Assembly (NCBI GenBank): GCA_947374225.1
Contig: CANCAY010000007.1
Coordinates: forward strand, 1-64,000
Length of the DNA stretch: 64,000 bases
Direction: 5' to 3'
Source of the DNA: Chitinophagaceae bacterium
GTDB lineage: Bacteria; Bacteroidota; Bacteroidia; Chitinophagales; Chitinophagaceae
A program made the translations under genes and the position numbers. Below the pieces are notes generated by a model, which worked only from the letters and a program-made list of their open reading frames with translations, was not told the DNA's origin and searched no databases. Of the stretch, positions 16,026 through 38,160 are shown piece by piece (position 1 is the first letter of the stretch; each line of letters opens with the position of its first letter).

Positions 16026-16034
16026 TGATACTAT

Positions 16035-16042: not shown

Positions 16043-16085
16043 GGTAGTTAACTAACAGAATATCAGCATTTAGACTATTTTATAT

Positions 16086-16133
16086 GTGTAATAAATACAC
16101 AAAGACTATTTCGCGTTAGTGTACATTGTACAC
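16086..16133. promoter_or_regulatory. Tandem palindromic operators GTGTA-N5-TACAC
   Basis: Two perfect inverted repeats of the same form lie at 16086-16100 and 16119-16133, 33 bases apart start to start (about three helical turns). The second is a full 15-base palindrome, GTGTACATTGTACAC. Extra half-sites TACAC occur at 16161-16165 and 16203-16207; the first of these shares TACACAAAG with 16096-16104. They sit between pxpB and susC, about 80-115 bases upstream of the predicted susC start point, which suits an activator of susC. Confidence 0.6.
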
Positions 16134-16170
16134 ATATGAATAAATAAATGAAAAAAAACATACACAAAGG

Positions 16171-16201
16171 TTTGCAATGTTAAGAATCTGTTATATTATT
16201 G
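16171..16201 (+). promoter_or_regulatory. Candidate susC promoter
   Basis: A TTTG at 16171-16174 and TATTATTG (one mismatch to TAnnTTTG) at 16194-16201 are separated by 19 bases, a normal Bacteroidota -33/-7 spacing. The predicted leader of susC is about 35 bases. Confidence 0.45.
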
Positions 16202-16242
16202 GTACACGATTGTATTAAATTTTAAAATCAAACCCGAACACT

Positions 16243-19200
16243 ATGCGAAAATTCCTACGTTTAATTACGGTTCCTTTGTTACTATGGGGTCTTGTTGCGA
16301 GCGCGCAATCAAGAACCATTAAAGGACAAGTAGTTTCAGCGAACGACGGTAAAGCCGTTGCTGGTGCTACTATTTCTGTGAATGGACAAAAAGTCTCTGC
16401 AATTTCTGGAGACGACGGTTCATTTGCTGTAAATGCTTCTGGCACTGTTACTCTTTCTGTAAAGTCTGTTGGCTTTTCTGGAAAGCAAGTACAAGTTGCT
16501 GGCTCTCAAAACACTGTTAGAGTTTCTTTAACAGAAGAATCATCTCAATTAAACGAGATTGTTGTGACAGGTTACACTGCACAAAAAAGAAAAGAAATCA
16601 CAGGTGCGGTTTCTGTTGTTAACGTAAAAGACATGAAGTCTGTTCCTTCTGGAACTGCAGAGCAAATGTTACAAGGTCAAGCTTCTGGTTTGACAATCAT
16701 TGGTTCTGGTAGCCCAGGTGAGCCTTCTAACGTGTTTGTACGTGGTATCACATCTTTCGGTAACTCTACTCCATTAGTAATTGTGGACGGAGTACAGTCA
16801 GCTCCTGGTGATCTAGGTATGTTCCGTGATTTATCTGCAAGTGACATCGAATCAGTACAAGTATTGAAAGATGGTCAAGCAGCTATTTATGGTGCTCGTG
16901 GATCTGCTGGTGTTATCATTGTAACAACAAGAAAAGGTAGAGGTAAAGCTTCTATCACTTACGAATCATACTATGGTGTTCAAACTCCAAAGTCTGGTAA
17001 CGTATGGAATAAATTAGATCCTCAAGGAATGGCTGATTTATATTTCTTGGCTGCTAAGAACACAGGACAAGTTAATGGCAACGGTGATGTTGTTTCAGGA
17101 CAATATGGTACTGGAAAATCTCCAGTATTACCTGACTATATCAAAGTTGGAACTAAGTCTGGTGTGACTGGTGCTGTAGATTTATCTAAATACAACAACA
17201 ACTACTCTAAAGGTGATATTTACTTAATCGTTCCTGCAAACAAAAGAGGAACTGATTGGTGGAAAGAAATCATGAGCAGTGCTCCAATGACAAGTCATAC
17301 TTTGACTGCTACTGGTGGTTCTGAAAAATCTACTTACTTGTACTCTTTGAACTATTTAGATCAAAAAGGTACTTTGTTAAACACTTATTTGAAGCGTTAC
17401 ACAGCTCGTGTTAACACTACATTTAATGTTAAAAACAATATTCGTTTTGGTGAAAATTTAACTATTTTCTTCAAGGACAACCCAAGAGTTGGAAACAACC
17501 AAGAGGGTAATGCAATTAATTTAACAGCTTGGGAGCAACCAATCATTCCTGTATATGATGCAGGTGGTGGATTTGGTGGTACATCTGGTTCTGAGTTAGG
17601 TAACTCATCTAACCCAGTTGCAAACCAAGTTCGTTCTAAAGACAACAAAAACTTTAACTGGCAGATTCAAGGTAATGTATTCGCAGAAGTTGACTTCGCG
17701 AAACACTTCCAAGCTAGAACTGTATTTGGTGGTCGTTTAGACAACTATTATGGATTCGGTCATGGATACAGAAGTTATGAGAACGCTGAAAATGGTTCTT
17801 CTAACTCTTACAATGAATATAGCGGATACAACAACAACTATAACTTCACAAACACATTAAGCTATAACAATGTTTTCAAAGAAAAACATAGCGTTAAATT
17901 AATGGCAGGTTATGAAGTATTAAAAGTTGCTGGTCGTCAAGTTGGTGGTTCTAGAGTAAACTATTTCTCTGATAACACAGATTATTTAAGTTTAAATACT
18001 GGTTCTCCAATTGGTCAATCTAACTATTCTCAATACTACAAAACAACTGGTAATTCTATATTAGCGAAAGTTGACTATGCTTTCAATGATAAGTATTTAA
18101 TCGGTTTGAACGGTCGTCGTGACGGTTCTTCTGTATTCGGTCCTGATAAGCGTTTTGGTAACTTCTGGTCAGCTTCTGCTGGTTGGGTAGTTTCTCAAGA
18201 AGATTTCTTCAAGAATATCAAGTTTATCAATTCATTAAAAGTACGTGGTAGCTATGGTATCTTAGGATCTATATCTAACGTAGGTGCTTTAAACCAATAT
18301 ACTACTTATGGTGGTTCTGGTGGATCTTCTTACTATGACTTAAACGGTACAAGTTCTTCTACAGTTATGGGCTTCTATGCTACTAACTTAGGTAACAAAG
18401 CTACTGGATGGGAAAGAGACAAGATTTTAGACATCGGTTTTGATGCGACTGTTTTAAACAACAAATTAGATATCTCTTTTGATTGGTATAACAAGTCTAT
18501 CGAAGGTTTATTGTTCCAAGACCAAGCGCCTGCTGTTGTAGGTGTGGGTTCTACATTACCTCAGGTTAACATTGGTGATATGAAAAACACTGGTATTGAC
18601 TTAGGTTTGAACTATCGTGGAAGAATCAACAACGATTTAAGTTACTCAATTGGTGTTAATGCTGGTGCTTACAAAAGTACAATCATAAATATCCCAGGTG
18701 CTGCAGGTTTCTTCGAAACTGCTGGTACACACAATACAGGTAATCAAGTAAGAAACCAAATTGGACATCCAGTAGGTGCTTTCTTTGGTTACAAAATTGC
18801 TGGAATTTACAAAGATGCTGCTGACGTAGCTTCTTCTCCAACTGAAGCTGACGCTGCTCCAGGTCGTTTCAAATATGTAGATGTAAATAAAGATGGTAAA
18901 ATTGACGATGCTGATAGAACTTTCTACGGTAATCCAAACCCAGCTTTCACTTTAGGTTTAAACTTAAGTGTTACTTACAAAGCATTTGATTTCTCTACAG
19001 TTATCTACGGTTCTTTTGGAAACGATGTCTTAAACGAAACTCGTTATTTCCAAGATTTCTATCCTCAATTCCAAAACTCAAAGAGTATTGCATTGTTGAC
19101 AAGTTCTTGGATGCCTGCTGATAGAAGCAAGCCAAGAGATCAATGGACTGCTGTTAATCCAAATGCGAAATATCCGATTGTTGAAAACAACTCATATTTC

Positions 19201-19476
19201 TCAACTAATGGAGTATTAAATGATTTCTATAAGGAAGACGGATCTTATGTAAGAATTAAACAATTAAGTATTGGTTACACTATTGAGCCTTCTACATTAA
19301 AGCGTTATGGTATCGACAAAGCACGTATTTATTTACAAGGTGCTAACTTGTTTACTTTAACTAACTACTCTGGATTAGATCCTGAGGTAGCTGGTAGTTC
19401 AGTATCATTTGGTGTTGATTACGGTGTTTATCCTCCTTCTAAGACATTCAATGTTGGGGTAAGCCTTACTTTCTAA
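16243..19476 (+). CDS. SusC-like TonB-linked outer-membrane glycan transporter
   Basis: A 1077-residue TonB-dependent transporter of the SusC/RagA type. Order: signal peptide (1-22, LVASAQS), carboxypeptidase-like domain (about 25-105), a TonB-box-like segment with NEIVVTGYTAQKRKEITGAV, plug (about 115-225) with LQGQASGLTI, FVRGITSFGNSTPLVIVDGV and SVQVLKDGQAAIYGARGSAGVIIVTT, then the barrel. DVNKDGKIDDADRTFYGNPNPAFTLGL near 890 is the calcium-loop signature of SusC proteins. It imports oligosaccharides captured by the SusD partner encoded next. Codon use is strongly biased to C-ending AAC, TTC and TAC plus GGT and GCT, unlike neighbouring genes, suggesting very high expression. Confidence 0.97.
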   Translation: MRKFLRLITVPLLLWGLVASAQSRTIKGQVVSANDGKAVAGATISVNGQKVSAISGDDGSFAVNASGTVTLSVKSVGFSGKQVQVAGSQNTVRVSLTEESSQLNEIVVTGYTAQKRKEITGAVSVVNVKDMKSVPSGTAEQMLQGQASGLTIIGSGSPGEPSNVFVRGITSFGNSTPLVIVDGVQSAPGDLGMFRDLSASDIESVQVLKDGQAAIYGARGSAGVIIVTTRKGRGKASITYESYYGVQTPKSGNVWNKLDPQGMADLYFLAAKNTGQVNGNGDVVSGQYGTGKSPVLPDYIKVGTKSGVTGAVDLSKYNNNYSKGDIYLIVPANKRGTDWWKEIMSSAPMTSHTLTATGGSEKSTYLYSLNYLDQKGTLLNTYLKRYTARVNTTFNVKNNIRFGENLTIFFKDNPRVGNNQEGNAINLTAWEQPIIPVYDAGGGFGGTSGSELGNSSNPVANQVRSKDNKNFNWQIQGNVFAEVDFAKHFQARTVFGGRLDNYYGFGHGYRSYENAENGSSNSYNEYSGYNNNYNFTNTLSYNNVFKEKHSVKLMAGYEVLKVAGRQVGGSRVNYFSDNTDYLSLNTGSPIGQSNYSQYYKTTGNSILAKVDYAFNDKYLIGLNGRRDGSSVFGPDKRFGNFWSASAGWVVSQEDFFKNIKFINSLKVRGSYGILGSISNVGALNQYTTYGGSGGSSYYDLNGTSSSTVMGFYATNLGNKATGWERDKILDIGFDATVLNNKLDISFDWYNKSIEGLLFQDQAPAVVGVGSTLPQVNIGDMKNTGIDLGLNYRGRINNDLSYSIGVNAGAYKSTIINIPGAAGFFETAGTHNTGNQVRNQIGHPVGAFFGYKIAGIYKDAADVASSPTEADAAPGRFKYVDVNKDGKIDDADRTFYGNPNPAFTLGLNLSVTYKAFDFSTVIYGSFGNDVLNETRYFQDFYPQFQNSKSIALLTSSWMPADRSKPRDQWTAVNPNAKYPIVENNSYFSTNGVLNDFYKEDGSYVRIKQLSIGYTIEPSTLKRYGIDKARIYLQGANLFTLTNYSGLDPEVAGSSVSFGVDYGVYPPSKTFNVGVSLTF

Positions 19477-19503
19477 ATTATTTAATTGAAAACTAATTAC
19501 ACT

Positions 19504-21270
19504 ATGAAAAAATATAATTTTAAACATATAATCCCAGTGGCGCTTTCTTCTCTGGTGATTTTATATGCTTGTAATAAATCTTACTTGGAAGTACCGGCTG
19601 CAGGCGCATTAAGCCAAGCAACGTTATCTAACAAGATTGGAGTTGAAGCCCTTTTAGTTGGAGCTTACTCTTTATTAGATGGAGAAGGAAGTAATGCAGG
19701 TACTGGTAACGGTCCTTGGGCAACTTCTTCAAGTAACTGGGTATATGGTTCAGTTGCGGGTGGTGACGCTCACAAAGGATCAGATCCAGGTGACCAAAAC
19801 TTGATCACTCCAATCGAACAATGGAATGCAACTGCATCTAACGGTTATTTAGACCAATTATGGCAACAACGTTATGATGGAGTTCAACGTTCAAATGAGT
19901 CTTTAAGAATGTTAGCTTTAGCTAAAGACGTTACAGCAGCAGACGTTGCTCGTATCTCTGCTGAAGCAAGATTCTTACGTGCTCACTATCATTTCGAATT
20001 AGCTAAGAATTTCAACAATATCCCTTTTATTGATGAAACAGTTACTTATGCAGCAGGTAATTTTGCTGTTGCAAATGGTCCAGCTTTAGCTAAAATTGAA
20101 GCTGATTTCAAATTCGCTTATGACAATTTGCCTGAAACAATGAACGGAGTTGGTCGCGCTAACAAGTGGGCTGCTGCTGCTTACTTAGGTAAAGTTTATA
20201 TGTTCGAAAAGAAGTATGCTGAAGCTGCTGCAATCTTCAAATTAGTAATCGCTAGCGGTAAAACATCTACTGGTGTTAAATACGCTTTGTTATCTAAATT
20301 TGCTGATGTAAACAATGCTGCAACTAAGAATGGTTCTGAGCATATTTTCTCAGTTCAAATGACAGTAAATGATGGTACTGGTGCTGCTAACGCTGCAACA
20401 GGTGACGCCTTAAACTTCCCTTATGGAGGTCAAACAGGATGTTGCGGATTCTACCAACCTTCTTTCTCTTTAGCGAATGCATTTAAAGTAGACGCGAATG
20501 GTTTACCATTCTTAGATGAGTCTTATAATGCAACTCCATTGAAAACAGATATGGGTTTATCTGCTGACCAAGCATACACTCCAGATTCAACAACTCCATT
20601 AGATCCACGTATTGACTGGACAGTTGGTCGTCGTGGTATCCCTTATTTAGACTGGGATATTATGCCAGGTTCTACTTGGGTTCGTAACCAAGCTGCTGCT
20701 GGCCCTTATGAGCCAATCAAGCACGTTTTCTACAAATCTCAAATTGGTACTTTCACCGATGGTTCTTCTTGGACTAACGGTTTCACTGCAAATAACTTCC
20801 CAATTATTCGTTTAGCTGACGTTTTATTAATGGCAGCAGAAGCAGCAGTTGAAACTGGTGATTTAGCAACAGCTTTGACAAACGTTAACTTAGTTCGTGC
20901 TCGTGCTTCAAATCCTGCTGGATTTGTGGGTGCTGGTAAAAACAATGGTGGTTTGACATCTGTAGCTAACTACAAAATTGGATTGTATACTGCATTTGCT
21001 GACGCAGCATATGCTAGAAAAGCAGTTCGTTTTGAGCGTAAACTAGAATTAGCTATGGAAGGTCACCGTTTTTATGACTTAACTCGTTGGGGTGCTGGTA
21101 AAACTGAATTAGATGCCTATGCTAAAAGCGAAGCTAAGCAAGGATACACGTCTATGAGCGGTGTTACTTACACTACAGGAAAGTCTGAATACTTACCTAT
21201 ACCACAGGCTCAAATTGACAAAACACAAAAAGACGGAAAGTCTGTGTTGACTCAAAACCCTGGATACTAA
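19504..21270 (+). CDS. SusD/RagB-family glycan-binding lipoprotein
   Basis: A 588-residue surface lipoprotein that forms the lid of the SusC channel. The upstream in-frame codon at 19486 is TTG; ATG 19504 is chosen because it yields a proper lipoprotein signal with acylated Cys23 (LVILYACNKS). SusD features: an N-terminal TPR-like helical region with ARFLRAHYHFELAKNFNNIP (about 155-175), the central insert, and a C-terminal block with IIRLADVLLMAAEAAVE, RARA, RKLELAMEGHRFYDLTRWG and EYLPIPQAQID. It lies 27 bases after susC and is followed by a strong terminator, so susCD form one transcript. Confidence 0.96.
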   Translation: MKKYNFKHIIPVALSSLVILYACNKSYLEVPAAGALSQATLSNKIGVEALLVGAYSLLDGEGSNAGTGNGPWATSSSNWVYGSVAGGDAHKGSDPGDQNLITPIEQWNATASNGYLDQLWQQRYDGVQRSNESLRMLALAKDVTAADVARISAEARFLRAHYHFELAKNFNNIPFIDETVTYAAGNFAVANGPALAKIEADFKFAYDNLPETMNGVGRANKWAAAAYLGKVYMFEKKYAEAAAIFKLVIASGKTSTGVKYALLSKFADVNNAATKNGSEHIFSVQMTVNDGTGAANAATGDALNFPYGGQTGCCGFYQPSFSLANAFKVDANGLPFLDESYNATPLKTDMGLSADQAYTPDSTTPLDPRIDWTVGRRGIPYLDWDIMPGSTWVRNQAAAGPYEPIKHVFYKSQIGTFTDGSSWTNGFTANNFPIIRLADVLLMAAEAAVETGDLATALTNVNLVRARASNPAGFVGAGKNNGGLTSVANYKIGLYTAFADAAYARKAVRFERKLELAMEGHRFYDLTRWGAGKTELDAYAKSEAKQGYTSMSGVTYTTGKSEYLPIPQAQIDKTQKDGKSVLTQNPGY

Positions 21271-21303
21271 TTTGAATTAAATATTTAATTAATTCTTATA
21301 CAG

Positions 21304-21333
21304 AGAGCCCCGATTTATCGGGGCTCTTTTTTT
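21304..21333 (+). terminator. Rho-independent terminator after susCD
   Basis: A perfect 10-bp stem AGAGCCCCGA/TCGGGGCTCT (21304-21313 with 21318-21327), loop TTTA, then a T run. Readthrough into the downstream lipoprotein and oxidoreductase genes would be limited, which fits higher expression of susCD. Confidence 0.9.
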
Positions 21334-21406
21334 ATGTTATAGAGCAAAAAAACATTTTTGTACGTATCTTTAAGAACGATGTTTTTGTACTAAATTCTAT
21401 TTTACT

Positions 21407-24400
21407 ATGAAGTTGCTTGCTCCCTGTGTTGGACTATTTTTTGTGTTATTTATAGTTGCTTGTAATGGAGAAAAACCATTATTTGAATTAGTAGACTCGA
21501 ATCATTCTGGTATTCAGTTTAACAATGAAGTTAAAGAGTCAGATTCTTTAAATGTATTAGACATCTCTAATGTATATAATGGAGGTGGAGTAGGTATAGG
21601 TGATTTTAATGGAGACGGGTTGCAAGATATTTATTTCACTGGCAATAAAGTGTCCAATAAATTATACTTAAATAAAGGGGAATTTAAATTTGACGACATT
21701 ACTACTTTGGCAGCTGTTACTGGCGAAGGCAAATGGTGTAGAGGTGTTTCGGTAATAGATATTAATAACGACGGTAAGTCAGATTTATATATCAGTGCCA
21801 CATTGGATACCAATGCTGCTAAAAGAGAAAACATTTTATATGTAAACCAAGGGAATGATGCTAATGGAATACCTAGGTTTAAAAATATGGCGGCTGAATA
21901 TGGTTTAGCAGACACTACGTATTCAACCATGGCTAATTTTTTCGATTACGATAATGATGGTGACTTAGATATGTTCTTGGTAGTGAATGAAATTAAAGAC
22001 CCACATATTCCCAATGTATATCATCCAAAAAATCAGAATCCAGAATATTTTAGTAGTTCAAGATTATATCAAAACAATTATGATTCTGCTTTAAAACATC
22101 CTGTATTTGTAGACGTATCTGAAAAAGCAGGAATTATAAAAGAAGGTTTTGGACATAGTGTAGTTGTTACAGACATTAATAAAGACGGATGGAAAGATAT
22201 TTATGTAACAAACGACTATCTGCCTAATGACTATTTATGGATCAATAATCATGACGGTACTTTTACAGATCAATTAGCGGTATACTTCAAACATAGCTCT
22301 GTCAACTCTATGGGAACAGATGTTGGAGATATTAATAATGATGGTTTGATGGACTTCATTACATTAGATATGAATCCTAGGGATAATTATCGTAAGAAAA
22401 TGATGATGAACCCGAACAGCTATCAAACATTTCAAAACAATGATTTATACGGATACCAATATCAGTATGTTCGAAATACTTTACAAATAAACCAAGGTCC
22501 AAGAGTATTACAAAACGATTCCATAGGTGCACCTATTTTTAGTGAGATTGCTTTTTTATCGGGTATTGCAGAAACTGATTGGAGTTGGACTCCTTTATTG
22601 GCGGATGTGGACAATGACGGCAATCGTGATTTATTTGTGACAAATGGTTTTCCAAAAGATGTAACAGACCATGATTTTATTACTTATCGAAACAAGGCGT
22701 ATAGCTTTGCAAGTAAAACACAATTATTAGTTGAAATTCCAGAAGTTAAAATTCATAATTACGCATTCAAAAATAATGCAGATTTAACTTTTACAGACCA
22801 GTCAATAAACTGGGGCTTTACTACTCCTACCTTTTCTAATGGAGCAGTGTATGCGGATTTGGATAATGACGGAGATTTAGATTTAGTTATAAATAATATC
22901 AATGACCCAGCTAGTATTTATCAAAATAAGGAAAGACAATTGCAGCCTGAAAAAAGCCACTATTTAGATATTGCTTTTAAAGGTACTGCACAAAACATGC
23001 AAGCTATAGGTGCTACAGTTGAATTATATTATGATCACGGTAAAAAGCAAATAGCAGACCAAAGTCCATTTAGAGGTTATTTGTCAACTGTTCAAAACAA
23101 CATTCACTTTGGACTAGGTGTTATTCAACAAATAGACTCAGCCATTATTCAATGGCCAAATCAAAAAATACAAGTATTAAAAAACATAAAGTCGGATCAA
23201 GAATTGACTGTTGATATAAAAAATGGAAATCCAGTTACTGATAACATTCAAAATACATTTGCAACCAATAGTTTATTTAAGGAAGTAACCAATGCTGTTG
23301 GTATAAATTATGTGCATAATCAAACTGATTTTGTTGATTTTAATATTCAAAAATTATTACCTCATAAGTTTTCAGAATATGGTCCTGCCATTGCTGTTGG
23401 TGATATGAATGGAGATGGATTAGACGATATGATTGTAGGTGGCGCAAGTAATAATAGTGCACAATTATTCTTCCAACAAAAGAACAATCAGTTTGTTCAA
23501 AAAGCTTTACTACCAGCTATACATTTTAATAAACCAAATAGTGACGAAGGCGTTTTATTAATAGATGTAGACGGAGACCAAGACTTGGATTTATATATTA
23601 GTAGTGGTGGATTTGAAAATCAACCCAATGCGGCAAGTTATCAAGACCAATTATATATTAATGACGGGAAAGGTTATTTTAAACAAGACTTAACGGCGCT
23701 TCCTTTAAATAATACCAGTAAACTTTGTGTTAAAGCAGCTGACTATGATCATGATGGTGATTTAGATTTATTTGTAGGAGGCAGGGTAGATCCATGGAAT
23801 TACCCAAAGCCAGTTAACAGTTTTATATACAGAAATGACTCTAAAAATGGTCAAGTAAAATACACAGACGTTACTAAAACTATTGCGAAGGGCTTAAATC
23901 AAATTGGCTTAGTATGCGATGCTTTATTTACTGATTTTAATAACGATGGTTGGACGGATTTAATAATTACTGGCGAGTGGATGCCAATAACTTTTTTAAC
24001 GAATGACAAAGGAGTATTTAAAAATAGCTCAAGTATGTCTGGTGTGCATGATAAAGTTGGATGGTGGAATTCGATTCAATCAGGCGACTTTGACGGAGAT
24101 GGAGACATGGACTATATAGTTGGAAATTTGGGGCTTAATTCTTTTTATAAAGCCTCTAGTGTTTATCCTGCTCAGATATATGCCAAGGACTTTGATAATA
24201 ATGGTAGTTATGATGCTTTTCCTGCATTGTATATTCCTACTAGTCATGAGGATACAATCAAAAAATTATTCCCAGCCCAAACAAGAGACGATATTGTTAA
24301 ACAGATGATTAGTACTCGTGCCAAATATCAGAATTATAAAAGTTTTGCAAGTGCAAGAATTGATCAATTATTCACACCAGAACAATTAAAGGGAGCACAA

Positions 24401-24982: not shown

Positions 24983-25052
24983 GTAACAGTTCAAATGTAT
25001 AAACATAATTTTAAAATTAAAAGTTTGGTTTTAAATTCTAATTCAGTGTACT

Positions 25053-26405: not shown

Positions 26406-26415
26406 AACGATTGCT

Positions 26416-28107: not shown

Positions 28108-28108
28108 A

Positions 28109-29830: not shown

Positions 29831-29841
29831 AAATCAAAAGA

Positions 29842-31275
29842 ATGAAATCCAATTCGACTAATCATCTTGATAAGTGTTTCCCATATAAAGAAGCTACTTT
29901 AATTCTTTTGTTATTTTTAATGTTTTCAAAAAGTGGCTTATTGAAAGCGCAGGGAATACAATATATTACTACTGCAAATGGGGGTAATAAGTTTAGTGGA
30001 AAAAAAATAAAACTTAATCCAGCTAATAATGTTAATACTGTCATGGCGACGATACATTTTAAGTCTAAAGAACGCTTTCAAAAAATAGAAGGTTTTGGAT
30101 ATGCATTAACAGGAGGGTCTGCGGCATTAATTGATCAATTGTCTGCCCCAAAAAAGCAAGCCATTTTACAAGAAGTTTTTGGTAACAGTAAAGCCGACTT
30201 AGGGGTTAGTTATATCCGCATTAGTATGGGGGCTTCCGATTTAGATGCCAATGTTTTTAGCTATTGTGATGTTCCAAAAGGGGAAACAGATTCTTTACTA
30301 ACCCATTTTAATTTGTCAGAAGACACGCTTCATTTAATACCAATTTTAAAGAAAGCATTAGCTATCCGTCCTGCACTTAAAATAATGGCTTCGCCTTGGT
30401 CTCCTCCAATTTGGATGAAGTCCAATGGATTGTCAAAGGGTGGACACCTGCTTAAAAAATATTATGCTTCTTATGCAAATTATTTTGTGAAGTATATTAA
30501 AGCAATGAAAAAGCAAGGTATTATTATAGCTGCAGTAACCATGCAGAATGAACCAGAACATGGCGGCAATAATCCAAGCTTATTAATGGATGCGCAAGAG
30601 CAAACAGATTTTTTAAAAAATTATTTAGGTCCACAATTTAAAAAAGAGAATATTAAAACAGAGATCGTATTATTTGATCATAATGCTGACCATCCTAATT
30701 ATCCAATTTCTATATTGGATGATTCCATTGCAAAATCTTATGCATCAGCGTCAGCTTTTCATTTGTATTTAGGCAATGAGTCTGCTTTATCAAAAGTGCA
30801 CGAAGCGCATCCTGATAAAAAAATATATTTCACTGAACAATGGACTGGCGCAAAGGGTGAGTTTGCCGGTGATTTAATGTGGCATTTAGAACATATTGTT
30901 ATTGGTACTATTAATAACTGGAGTAGTTTAGTTTTAGAGTGGAATTTAGCAGCCAATGCAAAATTTGAACCATATACTCCAGGCGGCTGCACAGAATGTA
31001 AAGGCGCATTTACAATACAAGGCGATACAGTGTCTAGAAATGTGAGTTATTATATTATTGGACAAGCGTCTAAATATATTCCGGCAGGAGCTCAAAGGGT
31101 GGCAACTACTACCAATGCGAATAGTATTAAAACTACAGGATTTATACTGCCTAATGGTAAAAAGGTTAGCTTAGTACTTAATACGGGTATGGCTCAAAAG
31201 GTTAAATTAGTTGTTGACAATAAGCAAATGGTTTTTGAACTACCGGCAGCCTCAGCTTCTACATTAGTTTGGTAA
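29842..31275 (+). CDS. Glycoside hydrolase family 30 (beta-glucanase/glucosylceramidase-like), secreted
   Basis: A 477-residue (beta/alpha)8 retaining glycosidase with a C-terminal beta-sandwich. The N-terminus has a long signal peptide ending near LLKAQG (about residue 37). The acid/base is Glu237 in MQNEPEHGG and the nucleophile Glu332 in FTEQWTG; EGFGYALTGGSAALI and ASPWSPPIWMK are further GH30 hallmarks. Bacteroidota enzymes of this look, next to a GH3, include endo-beta-1,6-glucanases, so beta-1,6-glucan is the leading substrate guess; beta-1,3 or glucosylceramide cannot be excluded. It is the last but one gene of the oxidoreductase operon. Confidence 0.92.
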   Translation: MKSNSTNHLDKCFPYKEATLILLLFLMFSKSGLLKAQGIQYITTANGGNKFSGKKIKLNPANNVNTVMATIHFKSKERFQKIEGFGYALTGGSAALIDQLSAPKKQAILQEVFGNSKADLGVSYIRISMGASDLDANVFSYCDVPKGETDSLLTHFNLSEDTLHLIPILKKALAIRPALKIMASPWSPPIWMKSNGLSKGGHLLKKYYASYANYFVKYIKAMKKQGIIIAAVTMQNEPEHGGNNPSLLMDAQEQTDFLKNYLGPQFKKENIKTEIVLFDHNADHPNYPISILDDSIAKSYASASAFHLYLGNESALSKVHEAHPDKKIYFTEQWTGAKGEFAGDLMWHLEHIVIGTINNWSSLVLEWNLAANAKFEPYTPGGCTECKGAFTIQGDTVSRNVSYYIIGQASKYIPAGAQRVATTTNANSIKTTGFILPNGKKVSLVLNTGMAQKVKLVVDNKQMVFELPAASASTLVW

Positions 31276-31346
31276 CAAACTTTACCAAGTAAAACGCATA
31301 CTAGGAAAATAAAATATAAAAATTATAAAATAGCAAATACGATTAC

Positions 31347-33635
31347 ATGAAAAAGAATCTTTTAATTATTGCTTCAGTTTTAATAACGACTGTAGCTATA
31401 GCACAATCAAGTTCACAAACAAGTAAAGATGTAAAAATGCATCAGTTTGTAAATGGTTTATTGGCTAAAATGACACTGGAGGAAAAACTAGGCCAGTTAA
31501 ACTTACCGGCTTCTAGTGATTTTGTAACAGGTAGTGTAAGTAGTTCTGATATTGCGGAGAAAGTAAAAGCGGGTAAAGTGGGAGGTGTTTTCAATATCCG
31601 TTCTGTAACAAAAATTAAAGAATTGCAACAGTTTGCAGTGAATAATACAAGACTTCATATTCCTTTATTATTTGGGATGGACGTCATACACGGTTATCGT
31701 ACTATTTTCCCTATACCATTAGGCATGTCTGCTACATGGGACATGCAATTGGTAGAACGCTCTGCAAGAATTGCAGCGAGCGAAGCGAGTGCAGATGGAA
31801 TACAATGGACATTTTCTCCTATGGTGGATTTAACAAGAGATCCAAGATGGGGAAGGGTATCTGAAGGTAACGGGGAAGATGCATTCTTAAGTTCTGCTAT
31901 TGCCAAAGCGATGGTTCATGGATATCAAGGGGATGACTTAGCAGCACCCAATACTATACTTTCATGTGTGAAGCATTATGCATTATATGGTGCAGCAGAA
32001 GGCGGCAGAGATTATAATACTACCGACATGAGTCGTGTGAGAATGTACAATGAATATTTTCCACCATATAAAGCAGCAGTAGATGCTGGTGTAGCGTCGG
32101 TGATGGTTTCATTTAATGAAATTGACGGGGTTCCGGCATCCGGCAATAAATGGTTAGTAGACGACGTGTTAAGAAAACAATGGAAGTTTGGTGGTTTCGT
32201 AGTGTCAGATTACACAGGTATTCCAGAAATGACCAATCATGGTATGGGAGATTTTCAAACTGTGAATGCACTTTCTTTAAATGCAGGGGTTGACATGGAC
32301 ATGGTAGGAGAAGGATTTTTAACAACGTTAAAAAAGTCAATGCAAGAAGGCAAAGTGACATTGGCTCAAATTAATAAAGCTTGCGAAAGAATTTTAATTT
32401 CAAAATACGAATTAGGTTTATTTGATGATCCATATCGTTATTGCAATGAGCAAAGATCTGCAACAGAAGTATTTACCGCTACTAATCGTGCTGAAGCAAG
32501 AAATATTGCAGCACAAAGTTTTGTATTATTGAAAAATAATAATGTATTACCAATCGCAGCAGGAAAGAAGATTGCTTTAGTCGGGCCACTTGCAAATGCG
32601 AAAGAAAATATGACAGGCACTTGGAGTGTGGGAGCAGATAATACTATGTCAATTACATTATTAAAAGGATTGTCTGATGCGATAGGCACTAACGGTAAAG
32701 TAGTCTATGCATTAGGTGCTAATTTGGAAGACGACGTAGAAATGCAAAAAAGACAAACTATGTTCGGTAAGGATATTGCAAGAGACGGGCGTACTGCAGC
32801 ACAATTAATTCAAGAAGCTATTTCAGTGAGTGCCGATGCTGACGTGATTGTAGCTGCATTAGGAGAAGGGGCGGAGAGTAGCGGGGAAAGTGCTTCTAAG
32901 TCTAATATAGACATGCCAGAGGCTCAAAAACGCTTATTAAAGGCATTAGTTGCAACAGGGAAGCCAGTTGTATTGGTTTTGTTTAATGGTCGTCCAATAA
33001 CATTAAACTGGGAAAACGAAAATGTACCAGCTATTTTAGATGTATGGTTCGCAGGTTCAGAAGCAGGAGATGCAATTGCGGATGCATTATTAGGTAAAGT
33101 AAACCCGTCAGGAAAATTGAGTATGAGTTTCCCTCAGAATGTGGGCCAAATTCCTTTGTACTATAATCACAAAAATACAGGCCGTCCGTTAACAGGAAAA
33201 TGGTTCTCTAAATTCCAATCTAATTATATCGACGTAAGCAATGAACCATTATATCCATTTGGATATGGCTTAAGCTATACTAAATTTGAATATGGCGATA
33301 TTCAGTTGTCAGCTAAGCAATTAAAAGGTAATCAAAAATTAACAGTATCGGTGAATGTTAAAAATACTGGTACGGTTGCAGGCAAGGAAGTGGTTCAGTT
33401 GTATATTAGAGACGAAGTAGGAACTATAACAAGACCAGTGCAAGAACTAAAAGGCTTTAATAAAGTAGAATTAGCTGCAGGAGAAAGTAAAAATATCAAC
33501 TTCGAAATTACTCCTGAATTATTAAAATTCTACAACAGCAATTTAAAGTATGACTGGGAAGCAGGTGATTTTCAAATCATGGTGGGACCTAATTCACGCG
33601 ACGTGAAAACTGTTAAAATAAATTGGAGTAAATAG
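31347..33635 (+). CDS. Glycoside hydrolase family 3 beta-glucosidase, periplasmic
   Basis: A 762-residue BglX-like enzyme with signal peptide (1-19, TTVAIAQ). The N-terminal TIM-barrel has GMDVIHGYRTIFPIPLG and the catalytic nucleophile Asp288 in VVSDYTGI. The alpha/beta sandwich domain (about 400-620) has LLKNNNVLPI, GEGAESSGES carrying the acid/base Glu candidate, and NPSGKLSMSFP. A fibronectin III-like C-terminal domain follows (about 665-760). It would release glucose from oligosaccharides produced by the GH30 enzyme and imported through SusC. It lies 71 bases after the GH30 gene; no terminator is visible between them. Confidence 0.94.
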   Translation: MKKNLLIIASVLITTVAIAQSSSQTSKDVKMHQFVNGLLAKMTLEEKLGQLNLPASSDFVTGSVSSSDIAEKVKAGKVGGVFNIRSVTKIKELQQFAVNNTRLHIPLLFGMDVIHGYRTIFPIPLGMSATWDMQLVERSARIAASEASADGIQWTFSPMVDLTRDPRWGRVSEGNGEDAFLSSAIAKAMVHGYQGDDLAAPNTILSCVKHYALYGAAEGGRDYNTTDMSRVRMYNEYFPPYKAAVDAGVASVMVSFNEIDGVPASGNKWLVDDVLRKQWKFGGFVVSDYTGIPEMTNHGMGDFQTVNALSLNAGVDMDMVGEGFLTTLKKSMQEGKVTLAQINKACERILISKYELGLFDDPYRYCNEQRSATEVFTATNRAEARNIAAQSFVLLKNNNVLPIAAGKKIALVGPLANAKENMTGTWSVGADNTMSITLLKGLSDAIGTNGKVVYALGANLEDDVEMQKRQTMFGKDIARDGRTAAQLIQEAISVSADADVIVAALGEGAESSGESASKSNIDMPEAQKRLLKALVATGKPVVLVLFNGRPITLNWENENVPAILDVWFAGSEAGDAIADALLGKVNPSGKLSMSFPQNVGQIPLYYNHKNTGRPLTGKWFSKFQSNYIDVSNEPLYPFGYGLSYTKFEYGDIQLSAKQLKGNQKLTVSVNVKNTGTVAGKEVVQLYIRDEVGTITRPVQELKGFNKVELAAGESKNINFEITPELLKFYNSNLKYDWEAGDFQIMVGPNSRDVKTVKINWSK

Positions 33636-33661
33636 TTCTTGCCCAATTCAATAAAGAAAAT

Positions 33662-34447
33662 TTACCAGGAACCATACAGCCCTTCCTTCAATGCTTTTTG
33701 ATATTTTTTATCATGGAATGTATACAAGAAGGGGGCTTTATGGGCGCCACCTTTTTTAGTTTCATTGAGTCTATTCAAAATACCAAAACCTAACATTTTT
33801 CTTTGAAAATTACGACGGTCTAGCTTTTGAGCTAAGATGGTTTCATATAATTTTTGAAGCTCCGGCATGGTGAACTTCTTTGGCAGCAAATTGCGGCCAA
33901 TGGGTAAGTAAGCTAATTGAGTTCTAAGGGCTTCTAGTGCATTTAAAATAATAGCTTCATGGTCCATCATTAAATTCTCCAATTTATTAATGTCAATCCA
34001 CTCGCAACCTTCTTCAAAAATAACATCTCCATATTTAACTTCGGTAAAATCTATTAAAGCATAGTATCCAACGGTTATAAACCTTTGTAATAACCAATTG
34101 TCCTTAGGTATTTTTACACCATACTCTAAATAAGCAGCTTGATGTACAGTAGCGTCAGAACGTTCTGGATTTCCAAACACATTAAACTGTTGTAAAAATA
34201 TATTATTCACGCCGGTACGTTCTTGTAGTACACGATAAGCTGCTTGTTCAATGGGTTCGTCTCTTAAAATGAATCCTCCAGGCAATGCCAATTTGTTCAC
34301 ATATTTAACCTGCAATAATAATATTTTAAGCACATTTTCATGAAAGCCAAAAATGACACAATCAACAGAAATTCCTGGTTGATATAGCTTGTCCCCTTTG
34401 TCTAAAATTTGCTTTAGATTAGGTGGAATAATGTTCTTTTTTGCCAT
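33662..34447 (-). CDS. Nudix-domain transcription regulator (NrtR/AraR-like)
   Basis: A 261-residue protein: an N-terminal Nudix fold (about 25-150) followed by a winged helix (about 165-235: TMPELQKLYETIL, LDRRNFQRKML). The Nudix box is degenerate: GGFILRDEPIEQAAYRVLQERTGV has RV...ER where catalytic enzymes have RE...EE, so hydrolysis is unlikely and the domain probably senses a ligand. In Bacteroides this family includes AraR, a sugar-pathway regulator. Its place between the GH3 gene and the sugar-isomerase gene makes it the likely regulator of this island, perhaps through the palindromes at 16086-16133. Confidence 0.88.
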   Translation of the reverse strand: MAKKNIIPPNLKQILDKGDKLYQPGISVDCVIFGFHENVLKILLLQVKYVNKLALPGGFILRDEPIEQAAYRVLQERTGVNNIFLQQFNVFGNPERSDATVHQAAYLEYGVKIPKDNWLLQRFITVGYYALIDFTEVKYGDVIFEEGCEWIDINKLENLMMDHEAIILNALEALRTQLAYLPIGRNLLPKKFTMPELQKLYETILAQKLDRRNFQRKMLGFGILNRLNETKKGGAHKAPFLYTFHDKKYQKALKEGLYGSW

Positions 34448-34462
34448 AGTTTTTAAAGAAGA

Positions 34463-34478
34463 AGACGCGAAAGCGTCT
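34463..34478. promoter_or_regulatory. Perfect hairpin/palindrome in the leader of the Nudix regulator
   Basis: AGACGC-GAAA-GCGTCT lies 16 bases upstream of the regulator's ATG. It could be a leader hairpin or an autoregulatory operator. It does not resemble the GTGTA-N5-TACAC sites. Confidence 0.4.
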
Positions 34479-34601
34479 GATGAATGTAAGATGATTATTT
34501 TAATTAATTTAAAGTTATAATTATTTGTGAAACTCCCCCAAATTTTTTATATTGTGTCATAGTAACGCATTGTAGTCTTATTCACTTTATAAAAAGCCAT
34601 T

Positions 34602-35531
34602 ATGAATTCAAGAAGAAAATTTTTACAACAAGCAGCTGCCTTATCGGTAGGAACTGCTTTATTAAGCAAGTCAAGTTGGGCTAATAGTTTTGCAGGCCCC
34701 AATTTGCCAGCTCCAGGTATTCAGCTATTTACTTTATTCAATGAAATGGATATTGACACAGTTGATACCTTAAAAAAAGTAGCAGCTGCAGGATATAAAA
34801 ACATTGAATCTGCTTTTAGTAAGCAGGGTGGTTTTTATGGTAGAAAGCCTAAAGAGTTTAAAGCTTTACTGCATGATATGGGTATGGATTGGAAATCACA
34901 CCATGTGTTAGGGACGCCTTTTAAAATGCCAGCCAATGCGAAATTACCAAATGGTCCAGACGGCAAGCCAGTGACTATCCCAGTAATGAAAAACCTTAAA
35001 GACAATAGCCAAGAGTTAATTGATCAGGTTGCCGAAGCAGGTATTCCATATATCGTGTGTGCGAATATTAATATTGAAACAGGCGATGATATTAAAATTG
35101 CTGCGGAGGTATTACAACGAGCTGGAGAACAAGCAAAAAAAGCGGGTTTACAATTAGCTTATCATAACCATGCAACTGAATTTGATAAGACAGATGGCAT
35201 CATTTCTTTTGACTATTTTACAAGTCAAGTAAGTGCCGATATTTTAAAAATGGAATTGGACTTAGGTTGGGTATTTAAAGCAGGAAAGGATCCAGTAGCA
35301 ATATTCAAAAAACATAAAGGTCGCTTCCCATTATTACATGTAAAAGATATGACCACTGCAGGGGAGATTGTGCCTTTTGGAGAGGGTGCTTATGACTTTA
35401 AAGACACATTTAAAAATGTAGATATTGCTGGAATGAAATACTTCTTCTTAGAGCAAGATTTTCCTAAAAAGCCTTTTGAGAATATTGTTTCAGCGGTACA
35501 AAACTTTAATAAGTTCAAAAAATCTTTATAG
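34602..35531 (+). CDS. Sugar-phosphate-isomerase/epimerase-like TIM barrel, Tat-exported
   Basis: A 309-residue xylose-isomerase-like (AP endonuclease 2) TIM barrel. The N-terminus has a twin-arginine signal (MNSRRKFLQQAAALSVG, cleavage near SWANS), so the folded enzyme, probably carrying a metal, is sent to the periplasm. Candidate metal and catalytic residues lie in NIESAF, LAYHNHATEFD, MELDLGWVF, LLHVKDM and FLEQDFP. Related Bacteroidota proteins act on sugars, including as 3-keto-glycoside lyases or epimerases. Placed beside GMC and Gfo/Idh oxidoreductases, a role on oxidised glycosides is likely but unproven. It reads divergently from the Nudix regulator and ends at a strong terminator. 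Confidence 0.88.
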   Translation: MNSRRKFLQQAAALSVGTALLSKSSWANSFAGPNLPAPGIQLFTLFNEMDIDTVDTLKKVAAAGYKNIESAFSKQGGFYGRKPKEFKALLHDMGMDWKSHHVLGTPFKMPANAKLPNGPDGKPVTIPVMKNLKDNSQELIDQVAEAGIPYIVCANINIETGDDIKIAAEVLQRAGEQAKKAGLQLAYHNHATEFDKTDGIISFDYFTSQVSADILKMELDLGWVFKAGKDPVAIFKKHKGRFPLLHVKDMTTAGEIVPFGEGAYDFKDTFKNVDIAGMKYFFLEQDFPKKPFENIVSAVQNFNKFKKSL

Positions 35532-35599
35532 AAATATATTAAACTGGCATGATTTGATATTTGTTTAGTATCAAAAAAATGTAAAAAGGTTAAAATAAA

Positions 35600-35635
35600 A
35601 AAAAAGAGCGTCTTCAAAAGGAGACGCTCTTTTTT
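35600..35635. terminator. Bidirectional terminator between convergent genes
   Basis: Stem AGAGCGTCT/AGACGCTCT (35605-35613 with 35622-35630), extended by A-rich and T-rich flanks on both sides, so it can work for the TIM-barrel gene (+) and the Gfo/Idh gene (-). Confidence 0.85.
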
Positions 35636-35699
35636 ATGAAATTATAATGTAATATTTAGCTAGCTCAAGTTGGTAGTTGGTTTTTAAATTACTAATATA

Positions 35700-36890
35700 T
35701 TAATTAATTGTTTGCTCTGTAATTTTTCCAGTTGTCTTATGCTTTAGAATTAATTTTTTAGCACCATAATGCGTCATTTCTTCTTTTACTAAATAATGGT
35801 CTGCATCATATTCAACTAAATGACTTTCTTTAGTTAATCCAACTTTACCTCTCCAAATGTCTAAATTAACTGGTTCCCATAATTTAGTTTTTGCAGAGCG
35901 GTAGGCTGCATCTAAAATACAGTTCACTACATAGCCGTCGTAAAAAGTTTCTTTTGGGGCTTCTCCTTTTTCTAATGAATTGAACATGTCCATGAACATA
36001 TGGTTATAACCTAATTCATTTAATTCATCTCCAACAGGGAATAACCAACCGCGATCGCTCTCAGCTTTTTCAGCAATATAGTCGCCACCTTTTCCAGTAG
36101 TAAACATTTCAAAACCAGTTCTTAAAAAACTATTAATCCAAATGGTTCCTTCTGTTCCCATTACTTCATCACGTAAATCTAAACCTCCTCTAAAAGTCCA
36201 GCTTACTTCAAATTGGCCAATAGCGCCATTCTCGTATTTAACTAAACCAATAGCATGGTCTTCTGCGTCAATAGGTTTTACTTGCGTATCTGCCCAACAC
36301 ATTACTTCTACTGGTTTAATATCTTTTCCAATATAGCTTCTAGATATCTCTACACAATGACAACCAAGGTCTAAAATACAACCACCACCTGCTTGCGTAA
36401 TATCCCAGAACCATTCACTATGGGGGCCAGGATGTGTTTCACGAGACTTAGCCCAAAGAATACGGCCTACAGCCCCTTCTTTAACGCTCTGGTTCGCTTT
36501 TATGAATTTTGGAGTATACACTAAGTCTTCTAAGTAGCCGTTAAAAATGCCCGCTTCTTCCACAGCAATCAACATTCTCTTTGCCTCTTCACCATTGCGT
36601 CCTAATGGCTTAGTAGTCATGACTGCTTTTTTGTGTTTGCAACAAAGCATTACAGCTATTTCATGAATATGATTAGGTAATGAAATACAAACTACGTCCA
36701 CATCAGGGTGGGCGATAGCTTCTTCCATTTCTGTAGTCCAGTGTGCACAGTTATAGTCTTCGGCAAATTTCTTTGCAGCTTCCTCACGTCGTGCATAAAT
36801 ACTTACTACTTTGTCTTTACTTCTATATCCTTGCAGTGCATCGGCATAAAAACGGCCAATGAATCCTGCTCCTAACATTGCTATACGCAT
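35700..36890 (-). CDS. Gfo/Idh/MocA-family NAD(P)-dependent sugar dehydrogenase
   Basis: A 396-residue oxidoreductase. The Rossmann motif MLGAGFIGRFYADAL is at the N-terminus, without a signal peptide. The usual EKP active-site motif is TTKPLGR (about 92-98), keeping the Lys. Further family features are GGGCILDLGCHCVEISRS (about 165-182), with the catalytic-position histidine, and FEVSWTFRGG. The C-terminal domain is the mixed beta sheet. It may oxidise or reduce C3 of a sugar in step with the TIM barrel and GMC enzymes. It lies downstream of the MFS gene on the same strand, but a terminator stands between them. Confidence 0.9.
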   Translation of the reverse strand: MRIAMLGAGFIGRFYADALQGYRSKDKVVSIYARREEAAKKFAEDYNCAHWTTEMEEAIAHPDVDVVCISLPNHIHEIAVMLCCKHKKAVMTTKPLGRNGEEAKRMLIAVEEAGIFNGYLEDLVYTPKFIKANQSVKEGAVGRILWAKSRETHPGPHSEWFWDITQAGGGCILDLGCHCVEISRSYIGKDIKPVEVMCWADTQVKPIDAEDHAIGLVKYENGAIGQFEVSWTFRGGLDLRDEVMGTEGTIWINSFLRTGFEMFTTGKGGDYIAEKAESDRGWLFPVGDELNELGYNHMFMDMFNSLEKGEAPKETFYDGYVVNCILDAAYRSAKTKLWEPVNLDIWRGKVGLTKESHLVEYDADHYLVKEEMTHYGAKKLILKHKTTGKITEQTIN

Positions 36891-36927
36891 ATTTGTTAAA
36901 TTAAGTGTTTGATAAAAATGAGGATAA

Positions 36928-36957
36928 AAAAAGCCTACCCAAAAGGATAGGCTTTTG
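36928..36957 (-). terminator. Terminator after the MFS transporter gene
   Basis: On the minus strand the stem AAGCCTATCC pairs with GGGTAGGCTT (one G-U pair), loop TTTT, followed by a T run. It separates the transporter from the Gfo/Idh gene, which probably relies on readthrough or its own promoter. Confidence 0.75.
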
Positions 36958-36969
36958 AAAATTTATTTA

Positions 36970-38160
36970 TTAAGCGGTAGCAACTTCTTTCTTTTCTTTA
37001 AATGTAAAGATGAAAGCAATTAATACTGCACCAGCAATAGCTGCAGGCATTAACCAGATACTAGTCCAGTCATGTCCAGTTGCAGTCTTGTGTTGGTCTA
37101 CTACATAACCACTATACCAAGTACCAATAAACATACCTACACCATAAGTAGCAAATGTAAATAATCCTTGTGCTGCGTTTTTAATTTGTTCGCCCGCTTT
37201 TTTCTCTGTGTACATATAGCCAGTAACAAAGAAGAAGTCATAACAAACACCATGTAAAATGATACCTGCATATAGCATCCAGCTTGCGTCCATACTGCCA
37301 TAAGCAAAACAAACATAACGTAATACCCATGCACCCATTCCTAAAATAAGCATTTTCTTAACGCCAATTTTATTGAACATAAATGGTATAGCTAATATAA
37401 ATAAGGCTTCAGACATTTGACCTAAAGTCATTTTACCTGCAGCATTTTCTAAACCCACTTCATTTAAGAAAGGATTTGCAAAACCATAGTAGAATGAAAG
37501 TGGTATACAAATTAAGATAGCGGCACCAAAGAATATTAAGTAAGATTTTTCTTTTAATAATACGAATGCCTCTTTACCTAAAATACTTGCAAATGAAGTT
37601 TTAGTACCAACCCCTTTTGGTGGTGTGTTAGGTAAGATGAAGCTAATTACGCCTAATACCAATGAAACTGCAGCAGCTACATGGAATGTACCAGCCGTTT
37701 TTTCAATACCTACTTTTGCAATAATTAATCCAGCTACAATCCAGCCTAATGTTCCAAATACACGGATCCAAGGAAATTGTTTTCCTGGGTCAGTCATTTG
37801 AGCAAATGCAACGCTATTACTTAAAGCAATAGTTGGCATATATAACATAGAGTATACTAAGATAACCCAGTAAAAACTTGAGTTGTCTACTTTAGTTGCG
37901 TAAAATAATAAGGCAGCTCCTACTAAGTGCAATACGCCCATAATTTTTTGAGCAGCGAAGAACTTATCTGCAATCATACCTACAAAGAAGGGAGAAATAA
38001 TAGTAGCAATGGCACCTGCACTATAAGCAGCTCCAATATCAATACCTGAAGATTTTAGGACTTCACCCATGTAAGTTCCCATTGTTACGTACCATGCACC
38101 CCAGATATAATACTGAAGAAACATCATGGCAGAAAGTAATACGCCAGTTTTTAATTTCAT
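36970..38160 (-). CDS. MFS transporter, nucleoside/sugar:proton symporter (NupG-like)
   Basis: A 396-residue permease with 12 predicted helices, of the nucleoside:H+ symporter family. Family signs: MKLKTGVLLSAMMFLQYYIWGAWYVTMGTYM at the N-terminus (first helix), SPFFVGMIADKFF, FPWIRVFGTLGWI and HGVCYDFFFVTGYMY. In Bacteroidota, members of this family are often found beside Gfo/Idh and sugar-isomerase genes and are thought to carry sugars or glycosides, not nucleosides. Here it would take up the product of periplasmic steps. Two direct TAATCGTTAG repeats sit just before its start. Confidence 0.88.
   Translation of the reverse strand: MKLKTGVLLSAMMFLQYYIWGAWYVTMGTYMGEVLKSSGIDIGAAYSAGAIATIISPFFVGMIADKFFAAQKIMGVLHLVGAALLFYATKVDNSSFYWVILVYSMLYMPTIALSNSVAFAQMTDPGKQFPWIRVFGTLGWIVAGLIIAKVGIEKTAGTFHVAAAVSLVLGVISFILPNTPPKGVGTKTSFASILGKEAFVLLKEKSYLIFFGAAILICIPLSFYYGFANPFLNEVGLENAAGKMTLGQMSEALFILAIPFMFNKIGVKKMLILGMGAWVLRYVCFAYGSMDASWMLYAGIILHGVCYDFFFVTGYMYTEKKAGEQIKNAAQGLFTFATYGVGMFIGTWYSGYVVDQHKTATGHDWTSIWLMPAAIAGAVLIAFIFTFKEKKEVATA

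Follow-up and report, generated by a model that had tools for sequence, protein, structure and literature searches.

A putative AraR-type-controlled beta-glucan locus of a Chitinophagaceae bacterium with a vanadium-haloperoxidase-family lipoprotein and a possible keto-glycoside branch

Why does a lipoprotein of the vanadium haloperoxidase (VHPO) family stand among genes for glycan uptake and sugar oxidation? The question is raised by a 64,000-nucleotide stretch of DNA (positions 1 to 64,000 of contig CANCAY010000007.1, henceforth the window) from a Chitinophagaceae bacterium (GCA_947374225.1), whose draft genome comprises 2.46 Mb in 83 contigs and is 92% complete. Between positions 16,086 and 38,160, a SusC-SusD pair is followed by an UnbV/ASPIC FG-GAP lipoprotein (henceforth UnbV), the VHPO-family protein, two GMC-family enzymes, GH30 and GH3 glycoside hydrolases, a Nudix-type regulator and further sugar-related genes. 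An earlier note on this DNA, made from the sequence alone, considered a haloperoxidase in such company unusual and proposed an aromatic or halogenated part of the substrate as the target of this enzyme or of the FG-GAP protein.

Our comparison with related genomes shows that the locus is a composite and that its SusC-SusD-UnbV-VHPO core is common. The reading we prefer, and to which we give an even chance, is a glycan locus of three portable modules (core, hydrolytic and oxidative) under a sugar-responsive repressor: a beta-1,6-glucan locus under AraR-type control, to which a keto-glycoside branch and a portable VHPO accessory are added. In its core, import by SusC and SusD would be joined by UnbV and a VIPO1-like vanadium peroxidase, both anchored lipoproteins, and a tandem pair of AraR-type operators would precede the transcribed genes.

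Gene order and a recurring core

Genes were called from the open reading frame (ORF) list together with Pfam and NCBIfam scans, which returned every gene that the earlier note had named, at the positions it gave. Start codons were set mechanically, and distances to SusC are thus approximate. The first part of the locus reads as follows:

16243-19476, + strand: SusC, TonB-dependent outer-membrane transporter (NCBIfam TIGR04056, 754 bits, cut-off 368; Pfam Plug and CarbopepD_reg_2)
19486-21270, + strand: SusD-like lipoprotein (Pfam SusD_RagB, E=5e-46)
21304-21333, + strand: terminator-like hairpin with T-run in the SusD/UnbV gap
21407-24982, + strand: UnbV/ASPIC FG-GAP lipoprotein of 1191 aa with CRTAC1-like propellers (Pfam FG-GAP_3, UnbV_ASPIC)
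25053-26405, + strand: VHPO-family lipoprotein (PAP2/VCPO-type) of 450 aa, a relative of Zobellia VIPO1 (PDB 4cit/4usz, E=2.3e-114)
26416-28107, + strand: GMC1, large subunit of a dehydrogenase of the fructose dehydrogenase (FDH)/FAD-dependent glucose dehydrogenase (FAD-GDH) type (PDB FDH 8k6k, E=9e-33)
28109-29830, + strand: GMC2, a paralogue of GMC1 (59%; Pfam)
29842-31275, + strand: GH30, BT3312-like endo-1,6-beta-glucanase (PDB 5ngk, E=2.3e-80)
31347-33635, + strand: GH3 beta-glucosidase (NCBIfam BglX, 906 bits, cut-off 666)

The eight genes that run from SusC (16243) to GH3 (33635) share one direction, with gaps of 10, 1 and 11 bp separating VHPO, GMC1, GMC2 and GH30 in turn, and the locus has both marks of a polysaccharide utilization locus (PUL), an adjacent susC-susD pair and carbohydrate-active enzymes. 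Translations of UnbV and VHPO begin, as judged by eye, with lipobox-type N-termini. Given the terminator-like hairpin in the gap between SusD and UnbV, transcription may not be uniform across the eight genes, and SusCD may be separated from the downstream genes; hairpins seen by eye occupy the same gap in the related loci L116-L119, L129, L123 and L126.

Relatives were compared in 80 named loci, the best 80 of 590 confirmed VHPO loci, to which all counts of VHPO loci below refer. These fetched stretches total 1,430,243 bases, 29 of the 80 being shorter than 20.5 kb; L numbers denote individual fetched loci, and their gene labels are uncurated best BLASTP matches (E <=1e-5) to proteins of the window or locus. 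Forty further VHPO loci overlap the named ones and were left out of the counts. The nearest named loci come from metagenome-assembled genomes (MAGs) of Bacteroidetes and Sediminibacterium. In all five of the closest (L116, L117, L118, L119 and L127; VHPO 75-81% identical) the order SusC-SusD-UnbV-VHPO-GMC(1 or 2)-GH30-GH3 is kept, which argues that the locus is real and selected; with the same order in five other assemblies, a chance assembly artefact is ruled out. GMC content varies among the five: L117 and L118 have both genes, L116 and L127 GMC2 alone and L119 GMC1 alone. The regulator is present in four (missing from L119) and the TIM barrel in two (L117, L127), while Gfo/Idh occurs in all five at 93-96% identity and the MFS transporter in all four whose stretch reaches that far. 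Two GMC genes directly upstream of SusC-SusD-UnbV-VHPO are found in BSSC1 (L123, L076), and at least one in Sediminibacterium magnilacihabitans (L129); the stretches seen of these loci contain no GH30.

Beyond this clade it is the core that recurs. UnbV lies upstream of VHPO on the same strand in 56 of the 80 loci; among the 61 that extend 9 kb or more upstream, UnbV is found there in 51 and SusC, SusD and UnbV together in 45. When VHPO is at least 50% identical to that of the window, UnbV is found in 41 of 44 loci with that much upstream DNA and the complete SusC-SusD-UnbV set in 39. A haloperoxidase beside SusCD is therefore not in itself exceptional: the core is common among VHPO loci. Hosts include Chitinophagaceae, Mucilaginibacter, Pedobacter, Dyadobacter, Spirosoma and Flagellimonas flava (L195), and VHPO relatives (E <=1e-20) occur in 101 of 195 sampled genomes of the bacterial family.

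The neighbours of the core vary. A frequent order in Mucilaginibacter is GH3-SusC-SusD-UnbV-VHPO-haem/FG-GAP, and a protein of about 930 aa, assigned to GH2 by Pfam in L138, is encoded in 10 of the 80 loci, mostly in that genus. FG-GAP proteins with an N-terminal CxxCH haem motif adjoin the core in 30 of the 80 loci, the motif falling within the first 160 residues in all 40 ORFs. The haem/FG-GAP protein comes after VHPO in Mucilaginibacter; in L045 (7011-9207), L047, L048, L052 and L036, a CxxCH FG-GAP protein and a DUF1573-type lipoprotein lie between UnbV and VHPO. Other redox neighbours are DUF1573, a DUF1080 protein in a Pedobacter MAG (L161) and planctomycete-type cytochromes in Dyadobacter (L124). 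With GH3 and GH2 genes around it in Mucilaginibacter and alpha-amylase beside a like cassette in the window's own genome (below), the core seems to serve as an accessory to several glycan loci. A more distant VHPO group (L067, L070, L072-L074) has a context unlike the SusCD core: the VHPO gene is followed by one for a protein of about 370 aa, which Pfam does not match in L072. In four of the five loci, a gene for a protein of about 320 aa (Phenol_MetA_deg in L072) and a second VHPO-like gene also follow.

The window's own genome holds, at the search cut-offs, two VHPO, three UnbV, four SusD and four GMC genes, and every UnbV and VHPO gene found in the draft sits in a SusCD locus. On contig C13, the second VHPO gene comes after SusC, SusD and the remaining two UnbV genes; its product is 41% identical and belongs to a more distant group, and the locus adjoins LacI regulator, HAD-family and alpha-amylase genes. 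Its order (L200, 2880-19991) is SusC-SusD-UnbV-UnbV-x188-VHPO-x377, with its own TGTGTATTTTGTACACG site before SusC. One of the two VHPO loci of this genome is thus of a beta-glucan type and the other probably of an alpha-glucan type.

This second cassette bears on the proposal that an aromatic or halogenated part of a single glycoside is the target of VHPO or UnbV, with the GH and GMC enzymes removing the sugar. Haloperoxidases oxidize phenols indirectly, which fits such a role. LacABC-type GMC dehydrogenases act on salicin, a phenolic glucoside (PMC9007349), and one iodoperoxidase of Zobellia, vIPO3, is reported to be upregulated with a brown alga, in a passage on algal halogen defence in PMC9296495; the latter fits either a feeding-linked or a halogen-defence role. 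Against the proposal, a like cassette stands beside alpha-amylase in the same genome, leaving a dedicated aromatic or halogenated substrate unsupported, the core occurs with GH3 and GH2 genes in Mucilaginibacter, and no aromatic-degradation family is among the Pfam families found in the locus. We therefore depart from the earlier note on this point and regard an aromatic or halogenated target as quite unlikely.

UnbV itself is predicted with high confidence (AlphaFold pLDDT 91.4), and its best PDB fold is CRTAC1 (9etn, E=2.6e-26), a match that gave no functional clue. Upstream of the locus, the window carries divergent genes for CT_C_D, CT_A_B and LamB/YcsF proteins, presumably of the 5-oxoprolinase PxpBCA type, together with an NRAMP-type transporter (12450-16037); the CT genes stand upstream of SusC in L116-L119 as well.

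Predicted operators and the AraR-like regulator

What would switch such a locus on? Upstream of susC lie tandem predicted operators of the form TGTGTA-N5-TACACA, and an AraR-like protein is encoded behind GH3:

16085-16101, no strand assigned: operator 1, TGTGTAATAAATACACA, an AraR-type palindrome and the sole exact match to the pattern in the genome
16118-16134, no strand assigned: operator 2, AGTGTACATTGTACACA, with one mismatch, 33 bp from operator 1
33662-34447, - strand: AraR-like regulator of the Nudix/NrtR family (PDB BtAraR 5bs6, E=2.3e-38; Pfam Nudix, NrtR_WHD)

PMC4666351 gives GTGTA-N5-TACAC as the operator of BtAraR (BT0354), an NrtR-family protein, whose sites contain GTGTATTTGATACAC, GTGTTACTTTTACAC and GTGTAAAAAAGACAC and occur in tandem at one promoter. 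The tandem sites upstream of susC share this form, and the window regulator, with a Nudix-like domain and a winged helix, has BtAraR as its best solved relative. Unlike those of BtAraR, the window operators precede a SusCD-UnbV-VHPO operon.

Sites with at most one mismatch occur at nine places genome-wide, compared with three for the reversed control; two of the nine are operators 1 and 2. Another (C13:32897-32913) belongs to the second VHPO locus, some 25 bp ahead of the likely start codon (ATG) of SusC. Across the 80 named loci, 27 such sites were found compared with two for the reversed control, and 26 of them fall at most 450 bp upstream of SusC, the remaining one lying in the NrtR-GH3 gap of L136. 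Per locus, such a site precedes 23 of the 35 VHPO operons for which enough upstream DNA is present, or 25 at two mismatches (L165 and L166, where SusC is too near the contig edge, were dropped). Wherever an NrtR gene is adjacent and the SusC start is visible, the operator is present (six loci: L116, L117, L118, L129, L136 and L141). Two further genomes, G164 and G087, the latter from the genus of the window's bacterium, contain 13 and 15 operator places (controls 1 and 4), and one in each lies just upstream of the SusC of the VHPO operon (G164 C13:93743; G087 C2:94532). Within the window, no site with up to one mismatch was found outside the SusC upstream region, and hence none common to both halves of the locus.

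Resemblance to BtAraR leads us to infer that the adjacent regulator would bind these predicted operators and respond to a sugar.

The VHPO-family lipoprotein

If the core is a sugar-induced accessory, the question becomes what VHPO contributes. Over nearly its whole length, its best PDB match is VIPO1 of Zobellia galactanivorans. We take the vanadate-binding positions of the VIPO1 group to be Lys, Arg, SGH, Arg and His. K333, R340, H369, R419 and H425 are invariant in 28 of 28 sequences; Ser367, present in the window protein, varies (S in 23, A in 3, C in 2). Besides its near full-length similarity, the window VHPO shares the vanadate-site residues of VIPO1; it differs in having Phe for the Tyr of the VIPO1 motif WDCNPY. 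Its gene lies in a SusCD-UnbV operon in a Chitinophagaceae-type genome.

The PAP2 fold and its common phosphate/vanadate site, together with the variable Ser367, would also suit an acid phosphatase acting on sugars or glycans at the cell surface. The PAP2 phosphatase motif is SRX5HX3D. Because the residue at His+4 is Asp in none of the 28 sequences, this motif is incomplete in the VHPO group, which disfavours the phosphatase, and VIPO1 is by far the best solved match, no phosphatase appearing among the PDB matches listed at E up to 1. We consider a phosphatase very unlikely.

Under the preferred reading of a three-module glucan locus, VHPO would most likely be a sugar-induced, envelope-bound, H2O2-dependent oxidase of halides (iodide or bromide), a general partner of glycan feeding with no special substrate of its own; this is the weakest step of the model. 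VIPO1 is named an iodoperoxidase in PMC5064120, which also describes a model for Arenibacter C-21, where a membrane glucose oxidase feeds a haloperoxidase for glucose-dependent iodine uptake. By analogy, Arenibacter offers a precedent within the phylum for sugar-linked halide oxidation. More broadly, a sugar-induced VHPO could be a standard part of many Bacteroidota glycan-uptake loci, in which an AraR-type switch co-induces SusCD, a CRTAC1-like lipoprotein and the peroxidase, so that halides are oxidized at the surface during feeding on certain glycans, whatever their linkage, to modify food or hold off competitors. We put this generalization forward tentatively, as possible rather than probable.

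Hydrolytic and oxidative genes, and the reading as a whole

Which glycan might the locus serve? The earlier note had read GH30 and GH3 as a beta-1,6-glucan pair, and active-site comparison supports this. Of ten BT3312 active-site residues given in PMC5481569, nine are identical in the window GH30, including the catalytic Glu238 and Glu339 and, in the -1 subsite, Asn244 and Asp131; Asp286 aligns to a gap. Asn244 is replaced by an aromatic residue in the two other GH30 enzymes compared there. The 1,6-beta-glucan PUL of Bacteroides thetaiotaomicron (PMC5481569) likewise combines SusCD, a GH30 (BT3312, GH30_3) and GH3; unlike it, the window adds UnbV, VHPO, two GMC dehydrogenases and an AraR-type regulator. 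GH30 would thus cleave beta-1,6-linked glucan and GH3 would free glucose.

The oxidative module would consist of GMC1, GMC2 and three genes beyond GH3:

34602-35531, + strand: Tat-type TIM barrel (xylose-isomerase-like), sugar isomerase/epimerase-like (PDB 8tct, E=4e-24; 8tcd, E=3e-23)
35700-36890, - strand: Gfo/Idh/MocA oxidoreductase (Pfam; best PDB match 6nor, E=9e-40; others include DgpA 9m3d and 7xr9)
36970-38160, - strand: MFS (Nuc_H_symport) transporter (Pfam, E=4e-118)

The TIM barrel begins with a Tat-type SRRKFL motif (by eye) and is related to 8tct and 8tcd, which we take to be keto-glycoside enzymes. GMC1 matches fructose dehydrogenase best, and Cys225, Cys231 and Cys235 (C-x5-C-x3-C) are invariant in all 103 aligned GMC proteins, two from the window and 101 relatives from fetched loci, some of these from a hand-picked set of 40 described below. 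PDB matches and Cys triad together support the reading, already made in the earlier note, of the GMC, Gfo/Idh and TIM proteins as probable keto-glycoside-type enzymes. The spacing of the triad equals that of the 3Fe-4S ligands of Burkholderia cepacia glucose dehydrogenase (Cys212, Cys218 and Cys222, with Cys213 no ligand; PMC6719666); Cys213 corresponds to Gln in GMC1, as traced by eye via fructose dehydrogenase. Such an invariant triad makes GMC1 and GMC2 likely dehydrogenases. Their substrates would be gluco-oligosaccharides or glucosides, oxidized probably at C3 to keto products that would then be handled by the TIM barrel, Gfo/Idh and MFS proteins.

In its 3Fe-4S-type GMC enzymes, TIM barrel and Gfo/Idh protein the locus resembles the LacABC/FAD-GDH/FDH systems and the 3-keto-glycoside pathway (PMC9007349, PMC6719666). 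Unlike those systems, the window locus encodes neither a small subunit nor a cytochrome. The genome carries DUF1080, cytochrome c and Gluconate_2-dh3 genes elsewhere, on contig C1, in a keto-glycoside-type locus (L198, 6901-17536) with the gene set Gfo/Idh, TIM, GMC, Gluconate_2-dh3, TIM, cytochrome c and DUF1080; the genome has two Gluconate_2-dh3 (PF13618) genes, on C1 and C9. We infer that electrons from GMC1 and GMC2 would pass through the 3Fe-4S cluster to cytochrome c, with the C1-encoded Gluconate_2-dh3 subunit, cytochrome c and DUF1080 3-keto-disaccharide hydrolase used in trans.

The GMC enzymes might instead be coupled to VHPO directly, their sugar oxidation giving local H2O2 that VHPO spends on halide, as proposed for Arenibacter C-21 with its membrane glucose oxidase (PMC5064120). 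VHPO and GMC1 lie 10 bp apart in the window, GMC follows VHPO in the five closest loci and precedes SusC in L123/L076 and L129, and H2O2-making GMC glycoside 3-oxidases exist (PMC10646112). Set against such a pair are the triad of electron-transferring dehydrogenases in 103 of 103 GMC proteins, which disfavours H2O2-making oxidases, the best match to fructose dehydrogenase, and the lack of GMC in 69 of the 80 loci, a count tempered by the 29 stretches among them all that fall short of 20.5 kb. If the GMC enzymes are the dehydrogenases they look like, H2O2 for VHPO would come from elsewhere or from leakage. We judge an oxidase-peroxidase pair unlikely.

The combination of SusCD, UnbV, GH30 and GMC recurs by itself, and the window adds the VHPO core to it. 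At least 16 of 120 genomes with GH30, among them that of the window, have GH30 and GMC matches within 20 kb of each other (counted by eye). Forty family loci of 20 kb were hand-picked, partly for GMC/GH30 proximity, and thus yield no frequency. Among them, L088-L103 and L112-L115 show a recurrent, varying GH30 locus of the order SusC-SusD-LamG-UnbV-GH30-GH30-PF10091 proteins-Gfo-DoxX-GMC-GH43-GH3, and L078-L087 and L105-L111 tandem arrays of 3 to 7 GMC genes, usually with one Gluconate_2-dh3-sized gene, TIM barrels, MFS and Gfo/Idh.

Several observations weigh against the three-module glucan locus as we read it. The gene order that the earlier note proposed to look for in other genomes is kept in the five closest loci, but GH30 accompanies VHPO in only 5 of the 80, all in the window's clade, and a GMC gene is present in just 11 fetched stretches. 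Where VHPO is less than 50% identical, UnbV is near in 10 of 27 loci; if only the 17 with 9 kb or more of upstream DNA are counted, UnbV is found in 10 and SusC, SusD and UnbV together in 6. As to control, 12 of the 35 loci lack an operator at up to one mismatch, the 23 that carry one are not independent because they come mostly from Mucilaginibacter and the window's own group, and a separate GMC/NrtR/TIM/GH3 locus in G164 has none at that threshold. Of the arabinose-binding residues of BtAraR (Arg34, Arg86 and His131), the window regulator keeps Arg86 and His131 and has Val for Arg34, which BtAraR requires to sense arabinose (alignment, by eye); its effector is thus probably a sugar other than arabinose, which is disfavoured. 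The genome also encodes four NrtR_WHD proteins, so the adjacent one may not be the operator binder. GH30 scores 379.8 bits, below the NCBIfam BT3312 equivalog cut-off of 700, and its exact activity may therefore differ from that of BT3312; its N-terminus looks, by eye, like a plain signal peptide rather than that of a surface lipoprotein. Finally, the window locus itself lacks genes for Gluconate_2-dh3, a cytochrome and DUF1080.

Each single part of the locus is already known. Among the open-licence papers searched we found no description of a SusCD-UnbV-VHPO core with an AraR-type operator; a single paper mentions both haloperoxidase and SusD, but separately, and UnbV with SusD was not found. 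If the tie between VHPO and glycan uptake is functional, halide oxidation would be coupled to carbohydrate feeding and sugar turnover would be linked to environmental halogen chemistry, and the poorly understood UnbV/FG-GAP lipoproteins would gain a testable context. VHPO relatives are common in the bacterial family, and those most similar to the VHPO of the window go together with SusCD glycan uptake, often with a defined operator. This recurring core and the recognisable control switch that often goes with it make the role of VHPO testable.

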